IMG/VR virus record: IMGVR_UViG_3300036979_000316 | Coordinates: 1-24,224 of that record | Source: a virus | Strand: one strand, 5' to 3' | Length of the DNA stretch: 24,224 nt | In this document: piece after piece, positions 1,376-23,537 of the stretch | Layout: each line of letters begins with the position of its first letter | Position numbering within the stretch: position 1 is the stretch's first letter | Program-made: the position numbers and the translations under genes | Notes under the pieces: model-generated | What the model was told of the DNA's origin: nothing | Seen by the model: only the letters and a program-made list of their open reading frames with translations | The model's database searches: none

Positions 1376-2683
1376 ATGGAAGATGTATTAAAAAAAGTAG
1401 ATGAGCTTGGCGCAAATCTTGAAGCCAAGTTAAAAGCAGCAAATGAAGCTGTAACAAAAGAAAACAAAGAAGCTTTAAAGAAAGCTATTGAAGATGTTAA
1501 CAAAGCAAGCGAGGAACTATTCGAAAGCAACAAAGCAGCTTATGCAACACTAGAAGGCAAAATGAAACTTATTGCGGAGGAAGTTGAAAAAGTTAAAAAA
1601 ACTAAAGTAATTGAAAAAAATGGCTCAAATATAAAGAGTGCATTAAAAGCCGCTTTAGAATCGCATGGATTAATTGAAAACTATATAGCAGACAACGGCA
1701 TTGAGGCTTGTAGGTTTAAATCTTCCGATATGTTGAGCAATAAGATACAGCTAAAGGCTGCAATCGAAATGACAACAGCATTAACTCAAGTACCTGGCAC
1801 TGACACTTCGATAGGTTCATTGACAGCTTATGCAATGAAACGTGTTGAATTGCCTATTTCACAGGATATTCATATGGCTCAGGTATTGCCAGTTAAATCA
1901 ATTACAGCTAAATACTTCGGTGTAATTGTATTCAATACTGAATGGAAAGGCGCTGCAACCACAGCAGAAAACACAGCAGTTGGTCAAAGCTCATTTAAAC
2001 TTAAATCAGTTGAATATAAAGTTCATGACATTGGTTGTTATTTCCATGTTTCTAAAAACGAACTTGAAGATGTTGACGGGTTGTTAACTGAAATTCAAAA
2101 ACGTGCATTCAACAACATAAATGAAGTAATAGATGCTAAGATACTTGGAACAAATGCAACTGATGCAAGCGATGTTCAAGGTCTTTTGGGTTCAGGAAAC
2201 TATACAGCATTTAGCGCTTCAACTTATGCAGCTTCCGTTAAAAAAGCAAACATAGTTGACGTACTAAGGAAAATGAGACTACAGGCAAGAGTGGCCAACA
2301 AGTCAGTTAACGCAGTTTTATTAAACGCTGCTGACATTGATAGCATTGAATCATTGAAAGACGATGATGGAAACTATCCAATGCAACTAGGAGTTAAGAT
2401 TGATGCAAATGGTAAAGTAAACTCTATCGCTGGGTTAGCAATCATAGAAAACAACAATGTAGTAGCTAACACAGCAATTGCAATCGATGTTAACGAAAGT
2501 TCAGAAATTGGCATTCGTAACGATGTAACAATGGAAATAGGATGGCAAAATGAAGACATAACCAAACGCATGGTTACCATTGTATTTGTCACTAGATTGG
2601 CTCATGGGATTAAAGATGCTGAACGAAATATTTATTCGTCAAATCTAACAGGCGATGCTGCAACATTAAACATTGGTGCATAA
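1376..2683 (+). CDS. Major capsid protein, HK97 fold, with N-terminal coiled-coil scaffolding (delta) domain
   Basis: The 435-aa product forms the icosahedral shell. Residues 1 to about 95 are Lys/Glu-rich helix with heptad character, as expected for the delta domain that acts as an internal scaffold and is cut off by the protease. The body then reads like HK97 major capsid proteins: a PGTDTSIGSLTAYAMKRVELPISQ entry segment (N-arm/E-loop area), the NTEWKGAATTAENTAVGQSS segment, a spine helix (FNNINEVIDAKILGT), an ADIDSIESLKDDDGNYPMQ A-domain loop, and a final strand pair ending in a hydrophobic TIVFVTRLAHGIKD. It begins directly after the protease stop codon. The next small ORF starts on the last base of the stop codon (TAATG). 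Confidence 0.93.
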   Translation: MEDVLKKVDELGANLEAKLKAANEAVTKENKEALKKAIEDVNKASEELFESNKAAYATLEGKMKLIAEEVEKVKKTKVIEKNGSNIKSALKAALESHGLIENYIADNGIEACRFKSSDMLSNKIQLKAAIEMTTALTQVPGTDTSIGSLTAYAMKRVELPISQDIHMAQVLPVKSITAKYFGVIVFNTEWKGAATTAENTAVGQSSFKLKSVEYKVHDIGCYFHVSKNELEDVDGLLTEIQKRAFNNINEVIDAKILGTNATDASDVQGLLGSGNYTAFSASTYAASVKKANIVDVLRKMRLQARVANKSVNAVLLNAADIDSIESLKDDDGNYPMQLGVKIDANGKVNSIAGLAIIENNNVVANTAIAIDVNESSEIGIRNDVTMEIGWQNEDITKRMVTIVFVTRLAHGIKDAERNIYSSNLTGDAATLNIGA

Positions 2684-2847: not shown

Positions 2848-3262
2848 TATTTTAATAGGATTGGCTTGCGCACTTTCACTAAGTGCGCAAACATACGCTC
2901 AAAAGACTATAGAATGTCCTGCTTATACCACTTTCTGGGGCGCAACAACAGACACTATCACTTCAAGTGGCACAAATATTCAGGCAGTAAGACTACAAGG
3001 GAACAGTTTGTTAAAAATAGATTTGCAGTTGGATGTAACCAAAACAAGTGGAACGGTTACAAACAATTTGTTTATTCAGAAATCAATGGATGGAACAAAC
3101 TGGACAAATACAGATACTATTGCTTTGTCAAATGCCTCAACAAGTCGCAACGTAAAGACTATTAGTAATTGGAATACGCCATACATTAGATTTTATCAAG
3201 TCGCACCAGCAACCGCTCAACTTGCATATTACAAACTATGGTTTATCGCACGTTATCAATAA
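2831..3262 (+). CDS. Putative decoration-type beta protein with an N-terminal signal peptide
   Basis: The 143-aa protein opens with a textbook signal peptide: MKKI, a hydrophobic core (SILIGLACALSLS), then AQTYAQ as a likely signal-peptidase I region near residues 20-24. The mature part is rich in Ser/Thr/Asn and predicted beta, with SMDGTNWTNTDTIAL and a final WFIARYQ strand. That pattern resembles small beta proteins beside the capsid gene in many phages, which I would associate with head decoration or a neck role. An exported leader on such a protein is odd, because virion proteins assemble in the cytoplasm. Alternatives are a periplasmic or surface moron, for example for superinfection exclusion. 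The stop codon TAA (3260-3262) supplies the first two bases of the tRNA-like minihelix that follows. Confidence 0.75.
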   Translation: MKKIISILIGLACALSLSAQTYAQKTIECPAYTTFWGATTDTITSSGTNIQAVRLQGNSLLKIDLQLDVTKTSGTVTNNLFIQKSMDGTNWTNTDTIALSNASTSRNVKTISNWNTPYIRFYQVAPATAQLAYYKLWFIARYQ

Positions 3263-3304
3263 CCTCATTTGGAATGCAGGGCGGTTCGATTCCGCTCTGA
3301 GGTT
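3261..3304 (+). ncRNA. tRNA-like acceptor/T-arm minihelix in the head operon
   Basis: The + strand holds two coaxial helices. AACCTCA (3261-3267) pairs perfectly with TGAGGTT (3298-3304), and GGGCGG (3279-3284) pairs with CCGCTC (3292-3297) through one G-T wobble. The loop 3285-3291 is TTCGATT, the canonical T-loop with T54, T55, C56, purine 57 and A58 in place, closed by the usual G53-C61 pair. The two stems stack with no unpaired base on the 3' side, as in tRNA. The 5' side carries an 11-base bulge (3268-3278) where the D and anticodon arms would be. I could not fold a full cloverleaf from the bases upstream. The shape matches a minimal RNase P substrate. The 3' side continues CAAAAAA, with no CCA and no U tract. 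Confidence 0.6.
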
Positions 3305-3317
3305 CAAAAAATAAATT

Positions 3318-3749
3318 ATGGCAACATATTGTAGTATATCAGATTTTACCGGATACCCATATGAGCTTCCAAATGAAATGAATCTAAATAATAGATTAAA
3401 GGGAGCTATTCAATACTATGAATTAAAACTAATAAAAAGGTTATTTTCGCCAGATTATATAACAGCATTTAATTTGGTCGATGATGATGCTTTAGATAAT
3501 TTATTAAAAGAAGCATTAATACCTTATACATATTTTCATTTTATTCAAACAGCAAATAGTCAGGTAACATCAACAGGGTACCAAGTAAATGTACTAGAAA
3601 ACACAAAAAGTACAATTGATAAAAAAAGACTATGTATGATTCATAATGATTACATAGACAAATTATCATTGGCAATTGACTACATGGACGAAAATAGTAT
3701 TAATTACAACATACTAGGGTTAAAATATATCAATGAATTTGGCATTTGA
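3318..3749 (+). CDS. Head-tail connector-like protein
   Basis: The 143-aa, mainly helical protein sits directly after the head genes where HK97 gp6-like connectors lie. These assemble as a ring under the portal. It has a short N-terminal segment (CSISDFTGYPYELPNEM), then several helices with a long acidic/hydrophobic middle (YITAFNLVDDDALDNLLKEALI) and a C-terminal helical hairpin (KLSLAIDYMDEN). No catalytic motif is present. The ATG at 3318 follows the tRNA-like element by 13 bases with an A-rich leader. Its 3' end overlaps the next gene by 17 bases. The family call rests on position and fold-like pattern rather than on a diagnostic motif. Confidence 0.6.
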   Translation: MATYCSISDFTGYPYELPNEMNLNNRLKGAIQYYELKLIKRLFSPDYITAFNLVDDDALDNLLKEALIPYTYFHFIQTANSQVTSTGYQVNVLENTKSTIDKKRLCMIHNDYIDKLSLAIDYMDENSINYNILGLKYINEFGI

Positions 3750-4203: not shown

Positions 4204-6083
4204 TTAGAAAAGTATCATATAATTTAGAATCATTACAAGAAACCTCGACATCGGTAAGTATTAATTCTTACATGATGTTTAAACATATCATTTTTGTAAC
4301 GGATGATTTCAGTTTCGAAGATGTTGACGAAATAGGATTGCTTTCTAATTATAAGACTGGAATCTCAGAAAAAACAATGTTCTTTACCCCTGAGATTCAC
4401 AATACAGAGCCTAAGATTGAAGACGCTAAATACTTTATTTTTCAAGACAAATCGGCTGTAAAAGTTGAGGATAATTTATTAAACTACCGATTCAAATTTA
4501 AATTAGACTTCGATTGGTATAAGAAATTTAAGTCATTTGAAAATACTGGTCTAAGGATTATGTTTGTTGACTACATGAACCAAGTGTATACAATATTAGA
4601 AGATGATGTATACATGGGATTAAAAACGTCAATGATTTCTGTGTCAAAGCCAGAAATAGGAAGTGAAGTATGTATTTTTAATGTCGATATTAATCTGAGC
4701 AAAGAAAATGATATGACAGCAACGGTAGTAACTGGTGTTGATTTATCGTTTTATGACTTACAATTAAGGAAGCCAATAATATCGACAAAAGATATAACTG
4801 TAATTTCGGATTCAATATTACAAAGTGGAGGGGTTATTAAAGACAATGGGAATTCAGCAATAACAGAAACTGGATTATTATATAGTATGTCAAATCCCCC
4901 ATTATATGGTAGTTCAAGTAAAGTATTATATACCGGGACTGATTTAGATTTTACAAAACAAATAACAGGACTAGCAGAAAATACTAATTATTATATTAGG
5001 GCGTTTGCAAAAAATAGTATAGGTGTAAATTATGGTATTGTTAAAATCGGAACAACAAGTGTAATAATTCCAACCGCACCAGAAGTTACAACAAAAGACG
5101 TGACCCCTATTTCGCAAACAATAATATCGTGCGGTGGTACAATAACAAATACAGGCAACTCGACAATAACAGGTAGAGGCATATTGGTATCAACAAACAC
5201 ACCCCCAACGCATGAAAACTCAACAGTAATAAGCGAAGCAACAAACATTAATAATTACACATTACAAGCTACAGATTTAGAAGTTGAAACAACATATTAT
5301 ATACGAGCATTTGCAACTAATGCAATAGGAACGTCTTACGGAAGTATAAAAGAATATTACAATACCGACATACATGTAACAATTACCACAGATACGATGA
5401 CAGGTGGGGATTTACAGTTCACTGTTACAGGAAGTGTAGACTGCGGAGAAGGTATAACAGTAATAGAGCAAGGATTTATATATTCAAAAACAGATATAAC
5501 GCCAACAGAGGGCGAGGGAGGCGTAAAAGTAACATCTGAAGATATGAGCGAAACCGTAACGGGACTAGATGCTAATACAAGGTATTATGCCCGTACATTC
5601 GTCAACACAAATTATGGGTTATTTTATGGCACAACTAAAAATGACTATACAGATATACATGTTGAATATGAAAGGAATCTTTATTATGATTATGCTACAT
5701 ACATAAAAACTAGAGGCAACTATATGACTACGTCTCAGGATGATGAAAAACTTAAATTAGAGGCAAGCCAAGACGGAGGAGGGTTTCCAAGCTATTTATT
5801 ATTGCAAGGGAATGAGCCTGTAGACACTAATTTTAGTGTCGGTAAGGACTATAGACTAACATTTATAAATAGTTATGACACAATAACAGCTGGCGTGTCA
5901 ATAGTAATATCATCATTAACAACAGGGTATCAAGCATTATATGCGCAATTCCCAAGTACAGCTGGTAATGTAGTTATCAATTTTACAGCGACACATGCAG
6001 TTCCTTATATATCTATAGAAATACCGTATAGTACAGGGAATGTAATACATATAGAAGGTTATAAATTAGAAAGATTAAGTTAA
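4200..6083 (+). CDS. Large virion protein with three Fn3/Ig-like repeats and a C-terminal beta-sandwich domain
   Basis: Layout of the 627-aa protein: residues 1-185 form an alpha/beta region that I do not recognise but that resembles neck or tail proteins. Residues about 190-290, 291-388 and 390-480 are three tandem beta repeats. Each has an inner strand, a G-x-L/I-x-Y/V-S turn, TPP- or NPP-type loops and the signature T-x-YYIRAFAxNxxGxxYG. Residues about 487-627 form a Ser/Thr-rich, carbohydrate-binding-like beta-sandwich tail (FNxxDTITAGVSIVI, AHAVPYISIEIP). Such Bacteroidota Fn3-like repeats decorate many virion surfaces and are thought to bind host glycans. Position just before the tail tube gene suggests a neck or tail-tube decoration, possibly fused to a tail component. 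Length is unusual for this slot. Confidence 0.65.
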   Translation: MIRKVSYNLESLQETSTSVSINSYMMFKHIIFVTDDFSFEDVDEIGLLSNYKTGISEKTMFFTPEIHNTEPKIEDAKYFIFQDKSAVKVEDNLLNYRFKFKLDFDWYKKFKSFENTGLRIMFVDYMNQVYTILEDDVYMGLKTSMISVSKPEIGSEVCIFNVDINLSKENDMTATVVTGVDLSFYDLQLRKPIISTKDITVISDSILQSGGVIKDNGNSAITETGLLYSMSNPPLYGSSSKVLYTGTDLDFTKQITGLAENTNYYIRAFAKNSIGVNYGIVKIGTTSVIIPTAPEVTTKDVTPISQTIISCGGTITNTGNSTITGRGILVSTNTPPTHENSTVISEATNINNYTLQATDLEVETTYYIRAFATNAIGTSYGSIKEYYNTDIHVTITTDTMTGGDLQFTVTGSVDCGEGITVIEQGFIYSKTDITPTEGEGGVKVTSEDMSETVTGLDANTRYYARTFVNTNYGLFYGTTKNDYTDIHVEYERNLYYDYATYIKTRGNYMTTSQDDEKLKLEASQDGGGFPSYLLLQGNEPVDTNFSVGKDYRLTFINSYDTITAGVSIVISSLTTGYQALYAQFPSTAGNVVINFTATHAVPYISIEIPYSTGNVIHIEGYKLERLS

Positions 6084-23234: not shown

Positions 23235-23537
23235 ATGATACAAAAATTCAGAAAGAAACCAGTCGAGATTGAAGCAATTCAATGGAATGGAAATAGTAAT
23301 AAGCAAGAGGTTGATTCTTTTGTTGGCAAAACATTAAACACCGAACTTGAAAGCGAAACAGCCTATTTGGCTGGAGTTGCACCACCGATATTCAGTTTAT
23401 TAATTGAAACAAAAGAAGGTGTAATGAAAGCGTTTAAAGGGGATTATATTATTAAAGAACCTTTTCCAACAGGCGACAGAGATTTTTATCCCTGTAAAAA
23501 CGATATATTTATTAACACCTACGATGCCATCTCATAA
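23235..23537 (+). CDS. Common phage protein of unknown function (GDYIIK/FYPCK-type)
   Basis: The 100-aa protein opens IQKFRKKPVEIEAIQWNGNSN, passes through SLLIETKEGVMKAFKGDYIIKEP, and ends DRDFYPCKNDIFINTYDAI. This pattern, with GDxIIKG and F-Y-P-C-K/P-D-I-F-x-x-T-Y, is widespread in phage genomes of many hosts, where it is annotated as hypothetical; its role is unknown. Here the middle has an inserted stretch (ELESETAYLAGVAPPIF) and a GDRD in place of the usual short loop. It lies between inverted ten-base repeats. Confidence 0.7.
   Translation: MIQKFRKKPVEIEAIQWNGNSNKQEVDSFVGKTLNTELESETAYLAGVAPPIFSLLIETKEGVMKAFKGDYIIKEPFPTGDRDFYPCKNDIFINTYDAIS

Follow-up and report, generated by a model that had tools for sequence, protein, structure and literature searches.

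What does a tRNA-like hairpin do in the head operon of a phage? The stretch of DNA analyzed here (24,224 bases from an uncultured virus, referred to as the window) encodes a portal fragment, a protease, the capsid protein, a small gene, a 143-aa protein, a DUF6712 protein, and tail proteins. Most of its structural genes abut or overlap. The exception is a 55-nt gap (3263-3317) occupied by a minihelix and an A-rich leader, which separates the stop codon of the 143-aa gene (TAA, 3260-3262) from the start codon of the DUF6712 gene (ATG, 3318). Judging from its position, the DUF6712 gene presumably encodes the head-tail connector. The 143-aa protein starts with MKKIISILIGLACALSLSAQTYA, an apparent Sec signal sequence, which is unusual within a phage head operon.

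The window element forms a 12-bp acceptor/T-arm helix

On the plus strand, the minihelix (3261-3305) reads AACCTCA-TTTGGAATGCA-GGGCGG-TTCGATT-CCGCTC-TGAGGTT-C. A preliminary description of this locus had recognized an acceptor-like stem, a 6-bp T-stem, and a TTCGATT loop within 44 bases, and all three are present in the window sequence (Table 1). The acceptor and T-stem contribute 6 + 6 pairs to a coaxial helix of 12 bp, with a single G-U pair in the T-stem (3280:3296). A covariance model built without the window sequence returned this element as its sole match in the 24 kb (55.3 bits, E ~3e-13), while 400 Markov-shuffled windows yielded zero such elements, which argues against a chance hairpin. 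Folding of two other intergenic gaps of the window revealed no hairpin in either. The minimum-energy fold of the 45-mer alone is the minihelix (-15.4 kcal/mol), but when the 3' flank is included, a competing fold that pairs UUUGGA with UUCAAA becomes the predicted minimum (-18.4). Since thermodynamics alone is ambiguous, we prefer the minihelix over the competing fold on the basis of comparative evidence, not energy.

Other identities were considered for the hairpin. Neither ARAGORN nor Rfam (gathering score) gave a match at the window element, and the 11-nt loop that replaces the D and anticodon arms sets it apart from a tRNA. An intrinsic terminator was rejected because there is no U-run: the window hairpin is followed by CAAAAAATAAATT, and family positions 76-77 are mostly A. 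An attC site was rejected because no matching core sites were found.

Table 1. Coordinates of the minihelix and neighboring genes in the window, and of arginine tRNA-like genes in other loci
Feature	Position	Strand	Remarks
N-1	3261	+	can pair with N73 (A3261:T3304); register from 129 distinct full matches
Acceptor-like stem, 5' strand, ACCTCA	3262-3267	+	covariation; covariance model match
Connecting loop, TTTGGAATGCA	3268-3278	+	11 nt; replaces D and anticodon arms
Conserved GG of the loop	G3271-G3272	+	three bases past the acceptor
T-stem, 5' strand, GGGCGG	3279-3284	+	covariation; covariance model match
T-loop, TTCGATT	3285-3291	+	sequence; covariance model match
T-stem, 3' strand, CCGCTC	3292-3297	+	covariation; covariance model match
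Acceptor-like stem, 3' strand, TGAGGT	3298-3303	+	adjoins T-stem without gap; covariation; covariance model match
N73 (T) and conserved C74	3304-3305	+	followed by AAAAAATAAATT, not CCA
Major capsid protein	1376-2683	+	HK97 fold, PF05065
Upstream gene, 143 aa	2831-3262	+	no confident family; TAA 3260-3262 overlaps acceptor 5' strand
Downstream gene, DUF6712	3318-3749	+	PF20459, E 7e-7
Arginine tRNA-like genes, T-loop position in locus	L122 6492; L127 1082; L141 2734; L154 5788; L170 5763; L178 11724; L198 1702; L212 5680; L216 3065; L228 2978; L230 7210; and others		

Both stems covary across related elements

In the seed alignment, 97.2% of cells were paired compared to 55.7% after shuffling (covariation score, 1.05 versus 0.20), and 138 distinct matches gave 95.2% versus 53.7% (0.94 versus 0.17); because the descriptor that picked both alignments requires pairing, these counts are partly selected. 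The pairing signal was lost when the partner was slid by 1-3 columns. Unbiased support comes from two control tests and from orthologous changes. Acceptor stems accompanied 51 T-arm sites compared to a mean of 6.3 (maximum, 12) after permuting the upstream flanks, and GG was present in 49 of these 51 connecting loops. With a pattern that fixed TTGGA and the T-arm but made no requirement on the acceptor, 53 of 99 unique T-stem sites had an acceptor stem of 6 bp or more, against 2.4 (maximum, 7) in swapped controls; the remaining sites were mostly tRNAs. Compensatory changes were found behind capsid genes that are 76-86% identical (AAGGAAA/TTTCCTT in locus L021 versus AAGGAAC/GTTCCTC in L060) and at an orthologous place in two Mycobacterium phages (TAGAGG/CCTCTA in Fowlmouth versus TGATGG/CCATCA in Cuke). 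The preliminary description had proposed a covariance model search of related phages and a test for compensatory pairs, and both gave strongly positive results.

These changes bear on the idea that the element is a tRNA 3'-end remnant left by integration, or else a chance hairpin. Integrases often use tRNA 3' ends, and the T-arm sequence is tRNA-like, but the acceptor 5' strand covaries, genomes hold many diverged sense-strand copies, and the 12-bp register is kept; we give this idea next to no credence. In particular, the arrays of covarying, sense-oriented copies exclude the integrated tRNA end suggested earlier.

The register was read from 129 distinct full matches. Because pair 1:72 was kept in 89% of them and pair -1:73 in only 50%, the functional helix comprises 12 bp, six from the T-stem and six from the acceptor. 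On the 3' side, C74 was found in 110 of the 129 (85%), C75 in 5 (4%), A76 in 93, and a complete CCA in 3; the window element is followed by CAAAAA, with no encoded CCA. Outside mycobacteriophages, N+1 is mostly A, not G.

The loops also hold conserved bases. GG lies three bases past the acceptor in 118 of 154 elements, at the equivalent of D-loop G18-G19, which in tRNA contact the T-loop. In named phages, GGC occurs with T-loop base G59 (9/10) and GGT with T59 (25/27), a pattern that is suggestive of a loop-loop contact rather than proof of one, since the copies are related. Our T-loop search required TTC[AG]A, and conservation of TTCRANN is thus by construction; gaps in five Mycobacterium phages that were read without this requirement nearly all hold TTC[AG]A. 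An orthologous variant in Fowlmouth, MrMiyagi, and Cuke (L237 3985-4078, L238 5792-5893, and L239 5043-5141) lacks GG and has the T-loop TGCGAGT instead of TTCGANN, so that two features in mutual contact in tRNA have been lost together.

The family is widespread and essentially viral

Minihelix architecture was found in at least ~100 phage contigs, with many unrelated phages among its carriers, and since the viral contig scans were pattern based, all such counts are lower bounds. The bare T-arm pattern GGGCGGTTCGATTCCGC matched at least 118 stretches in viral contigs, many of which are not tRNAs and have the minihelix layout. A stringent family pattern occurred at least 19 times in viral contigs versus once in 84,980 prokaryote genomes. 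Being almost confined to viral contigs by this pattern, the family is essentially viral. The Mycobacterium phages Fowlmouth, MrMiyagi, Cuke, Papyrus, and Indlulamithi carry ~10-12 elements each, arrayed in successive gaps within a single gene block, while Cellulophaga phage phiST, the crAss-like phage cr131_1, and one Clostridia MAG have single copies. Among 299 genomes of the phylum of this MAG, there was no second match to the family pattern. Several copies in L032, L115, and L164 have a common acceptor (GAACTGC/GCAGTTC) after a C-run, with T-stems that differ.

The full minihelix was absent from the candidates raised by short BLAST matches (Salmonella 7-11, BP63, Nitrincola, Bacillus, Aeromonas, Arthrobacter Glenn, and the crAss-like cr109_1 and ctbg_1), and none was found in crAss001, Cellulophaga phi38:1, HTVC010P, HTVC008M, or T4. 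For the prophage elements in L009 and L018, neither the E. coli nor the phage collections gave a match. Rfam 15 at gathering score matched no family and reported only a true tRNA. We found no prior description in the searchable open literature, which mostly leaves out subscription papers and preprints, so that an earlier report is possible. Minihelices thus apparently represent a widespread, undescribed family of phage cis-acting RNAs.

The window itself has no near relatives among viral contigs in a protein-based search, nor does the downstream-gene protein have a near relative among named phages. A protein search of the window returned distant capsid matches only, the best in Flavobacterium phages, and the minihelix was not found in the two of these that we checked. 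In L021, L060, L070, L108, and L227, the minihelix lies directly 3' of the capsid gene, and the capsid proteins encoded there are distant homologues of the window capsid (~25% identity). Positions 23235-23511 of the window align at 80% DNA identity with an unannotated region of LR756500.1, a 462-kb uncultured phage; the rest of the window had no match.

Minihelices are placed at stop codons between genes

A same-strand ORF stop lies within -8 to +20 of N+1 in 95 of 129 elements, compared to 10% at random sites, and an opposite-strand stop in 13 of 129. Distances to the stop codon peak at -1 to +1 and at +7 to +9. Minihelices are on the sense strand between codirectional genes, at or within ~12 nt of the upstream stop codon, with start codons mostly 10-50 nt downstream. 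The genes upstream encode capsid proteins (phrog_10, PF05065 in 6/54), ArdC-like anti-restriction proteins, and DUF932 proteins; those downstream are mixed, and comparison of flanking genes revealed no protein common to the flanks. At the level of sequence comparison, we regard the following as established: the existence of a family, covariation in both of its stems, a helix length of 12 bp, C74 with CCA avoidance, the placement, and the arrays.

Some copies are directly behind capsid genes, as might be expected of a packaging or assembly signal or of a binding site for a host or phage tRNA-binding protein. The Mycobacterium phage arrays, on the other hand, sit among small genes behind lysis genes with up to 12 copies, and the flanks have no protein in common; such a role strikes us as highly improbable. 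The packaging signal proposed in the preliminary description is unlikely for a related reason, as most copies are outside head genes.

Nearly all gaps in the Mycobacterium phages have the order stop, leader, minihelix, A73 C74, second hairpin, AGAGGATGG, and start. In the Mycobacterium phage loci L237-L239, L259, and L260, the second hairpin is variable and directly follows the minihelix, with a AGAGGATGG-like ribosome-binding site after it, and some Mycobacterium phage elements have an extra hairpin between the GG loop and the T-arm. Fowlmouth (L237) gp43 and gp47 (3443-3580 and 4340-4615) start upstream of or inside minihelices, which suggests mis-called starts or genes. In Cellulophaga phage phiST, the minihelix comes behind a terminator and is a 5' UTR element there, not an intercistronic one.

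This placement can also be read without RNase P, with the fold alone forming an mRNA end or insulator that blocks exonucleases or keeps ribosomes from sliding on to the next gene, or else acting as a stable structure in the 5' UTR. Elements at stop codons and ahead of start sites fit such a role, as do the phiST element after its terminator and the second hairpin that often lies directly downstream (40% of the 34-nt stretches downstream of elements exceed 95% of shuffles in stability). However, a plain hairpin would be sufficient for this, with no need for the T-loop, GG, 12 bp, and C74 to be kept across phages of distant hosts, and we consider an action by the fold alone unlikely.

Minihelices resemble substrates of host RNase P

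Bacterial RNase P makes contact with the T-loop, gauges the 12 bp of acceptor and T-stem, and pairs N73-C74-C75 with GGU; synthetic acceptor/T-arm hairpins are also cleaved at their correct site, and phage and mRNA substrates of the enzyme are already known (PMC11143913, PMC10731613). The features conserved in the family are RNase P determinants, except for C75-A76. Minihelices occur in phages of distant hosts (Mycobacterium and Cellulophaga), as well as in a Clostridia MAG and a crAss-like phage, and such a spread speaks for a universal host factor. On this evidence, the minihelix is probably a tRNA-like punctuation of polycistronic phage mRNA that is cut by host RNase P. The preliminary description had likened it to a minimal RNase P substrate, and the 12-bp ruler and T-loop bear this out; at the 3' end, C74 is conserved but C75 is not.

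Host RNase P would read the 12-bp acceptor/T helix, the T-loop, and N73-C74 and would cut between N-1 and N+1. The upstream message would be freed directly behind its stop codon, and the downstream message would start with a compact folded 5' end, which could alter its stability and translation. Based on the conserved register (12 bp, N73, and C74), the predicted cut in the window is most likely between 3261 and 3262, where it would separate the capsid/143-aa message from the connector message. The cut had been proposed to fall before 3261; the predicted site still lies inside the upstream stop codon, but the proposed position was probably one base off. As the window minihelix would form only when the stop codon is free of a ribosome, we speculate that the cut could be coupled to translation termination.

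Several features argue against cleavage by RNase P. C75-A76 strengthens RNase P binding, and in this family it is absent, with C75 even avoided. The preference for A at N+1 outside mycobacteriophages, the phiST element behind a terminator, and the competing fold in the window count against it as well. In addition, the upstream product would end with no 3' hairpin, and in the window its stop codon would be truncated. The avoidance of C75 and CCA might prevent the unit from being handled like a tRNA, or it might permit RNase Z.

The latter leads to a scheme in which both ends are processed, by RNase P on the 5' side and by RNase Z or other nucleases on the 3' side, which would release a 44-nt tRNA-like small RNA or free the downstream message at N73/C74. 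CCA blocks RNase Z in many bacteria, and its rarity in the family would fit this scheme. The determinants of RNase Z are the T-arm and acceptor, both of which the minihelix has. Nevertheless, the loop and stems are too variable for a guide RNA, and we know of no need for ten different small RNAs, so we view processing at both ends as quite unlikely.

Returning to cleavage by RNase P at the 5' side, we lean slightly toward the possibility that phages of at least two phyla (Bacteroidota and Actinomycetota, probably more) have independently adopted or exchanged minihelices for RNase P cuts at each stop codon. If the cut is real, the metabolism of phage mRNAs, late and early alike, would have RNase P as a general factor, and the predicted route would be an unsuspected form of phage mRNA processing that depends on the host enzyme. 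The minihelices would add to phage gene expression a widespread RNA family that is missing from Rfam and the searchable open literature, and they may serve as natural minimal RNase P substrates for mechanism studies and tool building. Since known laboratory phages of M. smegmatis carry them, RNase P cleavage is directly testable.

Comparison with known systems

The tRNA-like domain of tmRNA resembles the minihelix in having an acceptor, a T-arm, and a D-loop without a D-stem, while the minihelix has no mRNA-like domain, no CCA, and a length of 44 nt. Rfam RF04354 (Plastid-ycf2 5' UTR) weakly matched the complementary strand (17.6 bits versus a gathering score of 65.7, E 0.37); being below threshold and on the opposite strand, this match reflects T-arm resemblance only. 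We also noticed ~20 phage arginine tRNA-like genes (anticodons TCT, ACG, and CCT; Table 1), nearly all missed by ARAGORN, with the layout acceptor, TAxC, anticodon arm, GAAAG.GTAATTGGA, and T-arm. Their GG "D-loop" is 3' of the anticodon arm and immediately precedes the T-stem, as though the D-arm had been permuted, and they have the TTGGA motif in common with the minihelix.

Phage RNAs that are cut by host RNase P include phi80 M3 RNA, P1/P7 C4 antisense RNA, and T4 gene 32 mRNA (PMC11143913). Identity with M3 was rejected, as M3 is an OOP-like antisense/terminator hairpin without a T-loop, unlike the minihelix, and a search of phi80 with the minihelix model gave no match. The synthetic RNase P substrates AT1 and pMini3bpUG (PMC11143913) are closer, since they have the acceptor and T helix, the T-loop, and a short link that replaces the D and anticodon arms. 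These are synthetic and carry RCCA, whereas minihelices are natural and intercistronic, with 12 bp, a GG-bearing loop, C74, and no CCA.

In mitochondrial tRNA punctuation, tRNA-shaped units likewise lie between genes and direct the RNase P cuts that free the messages, as minihelices are expected to do. Minihelices differ in that they are not tRNAs (no anticodon and no CCA), are phage encoded, and have a cut that is predicted. If this prediction is true, they would be the bacterial-virus counterpart of mitochondrial tRNA punctuation, in arrays of up to ~12 per genome.
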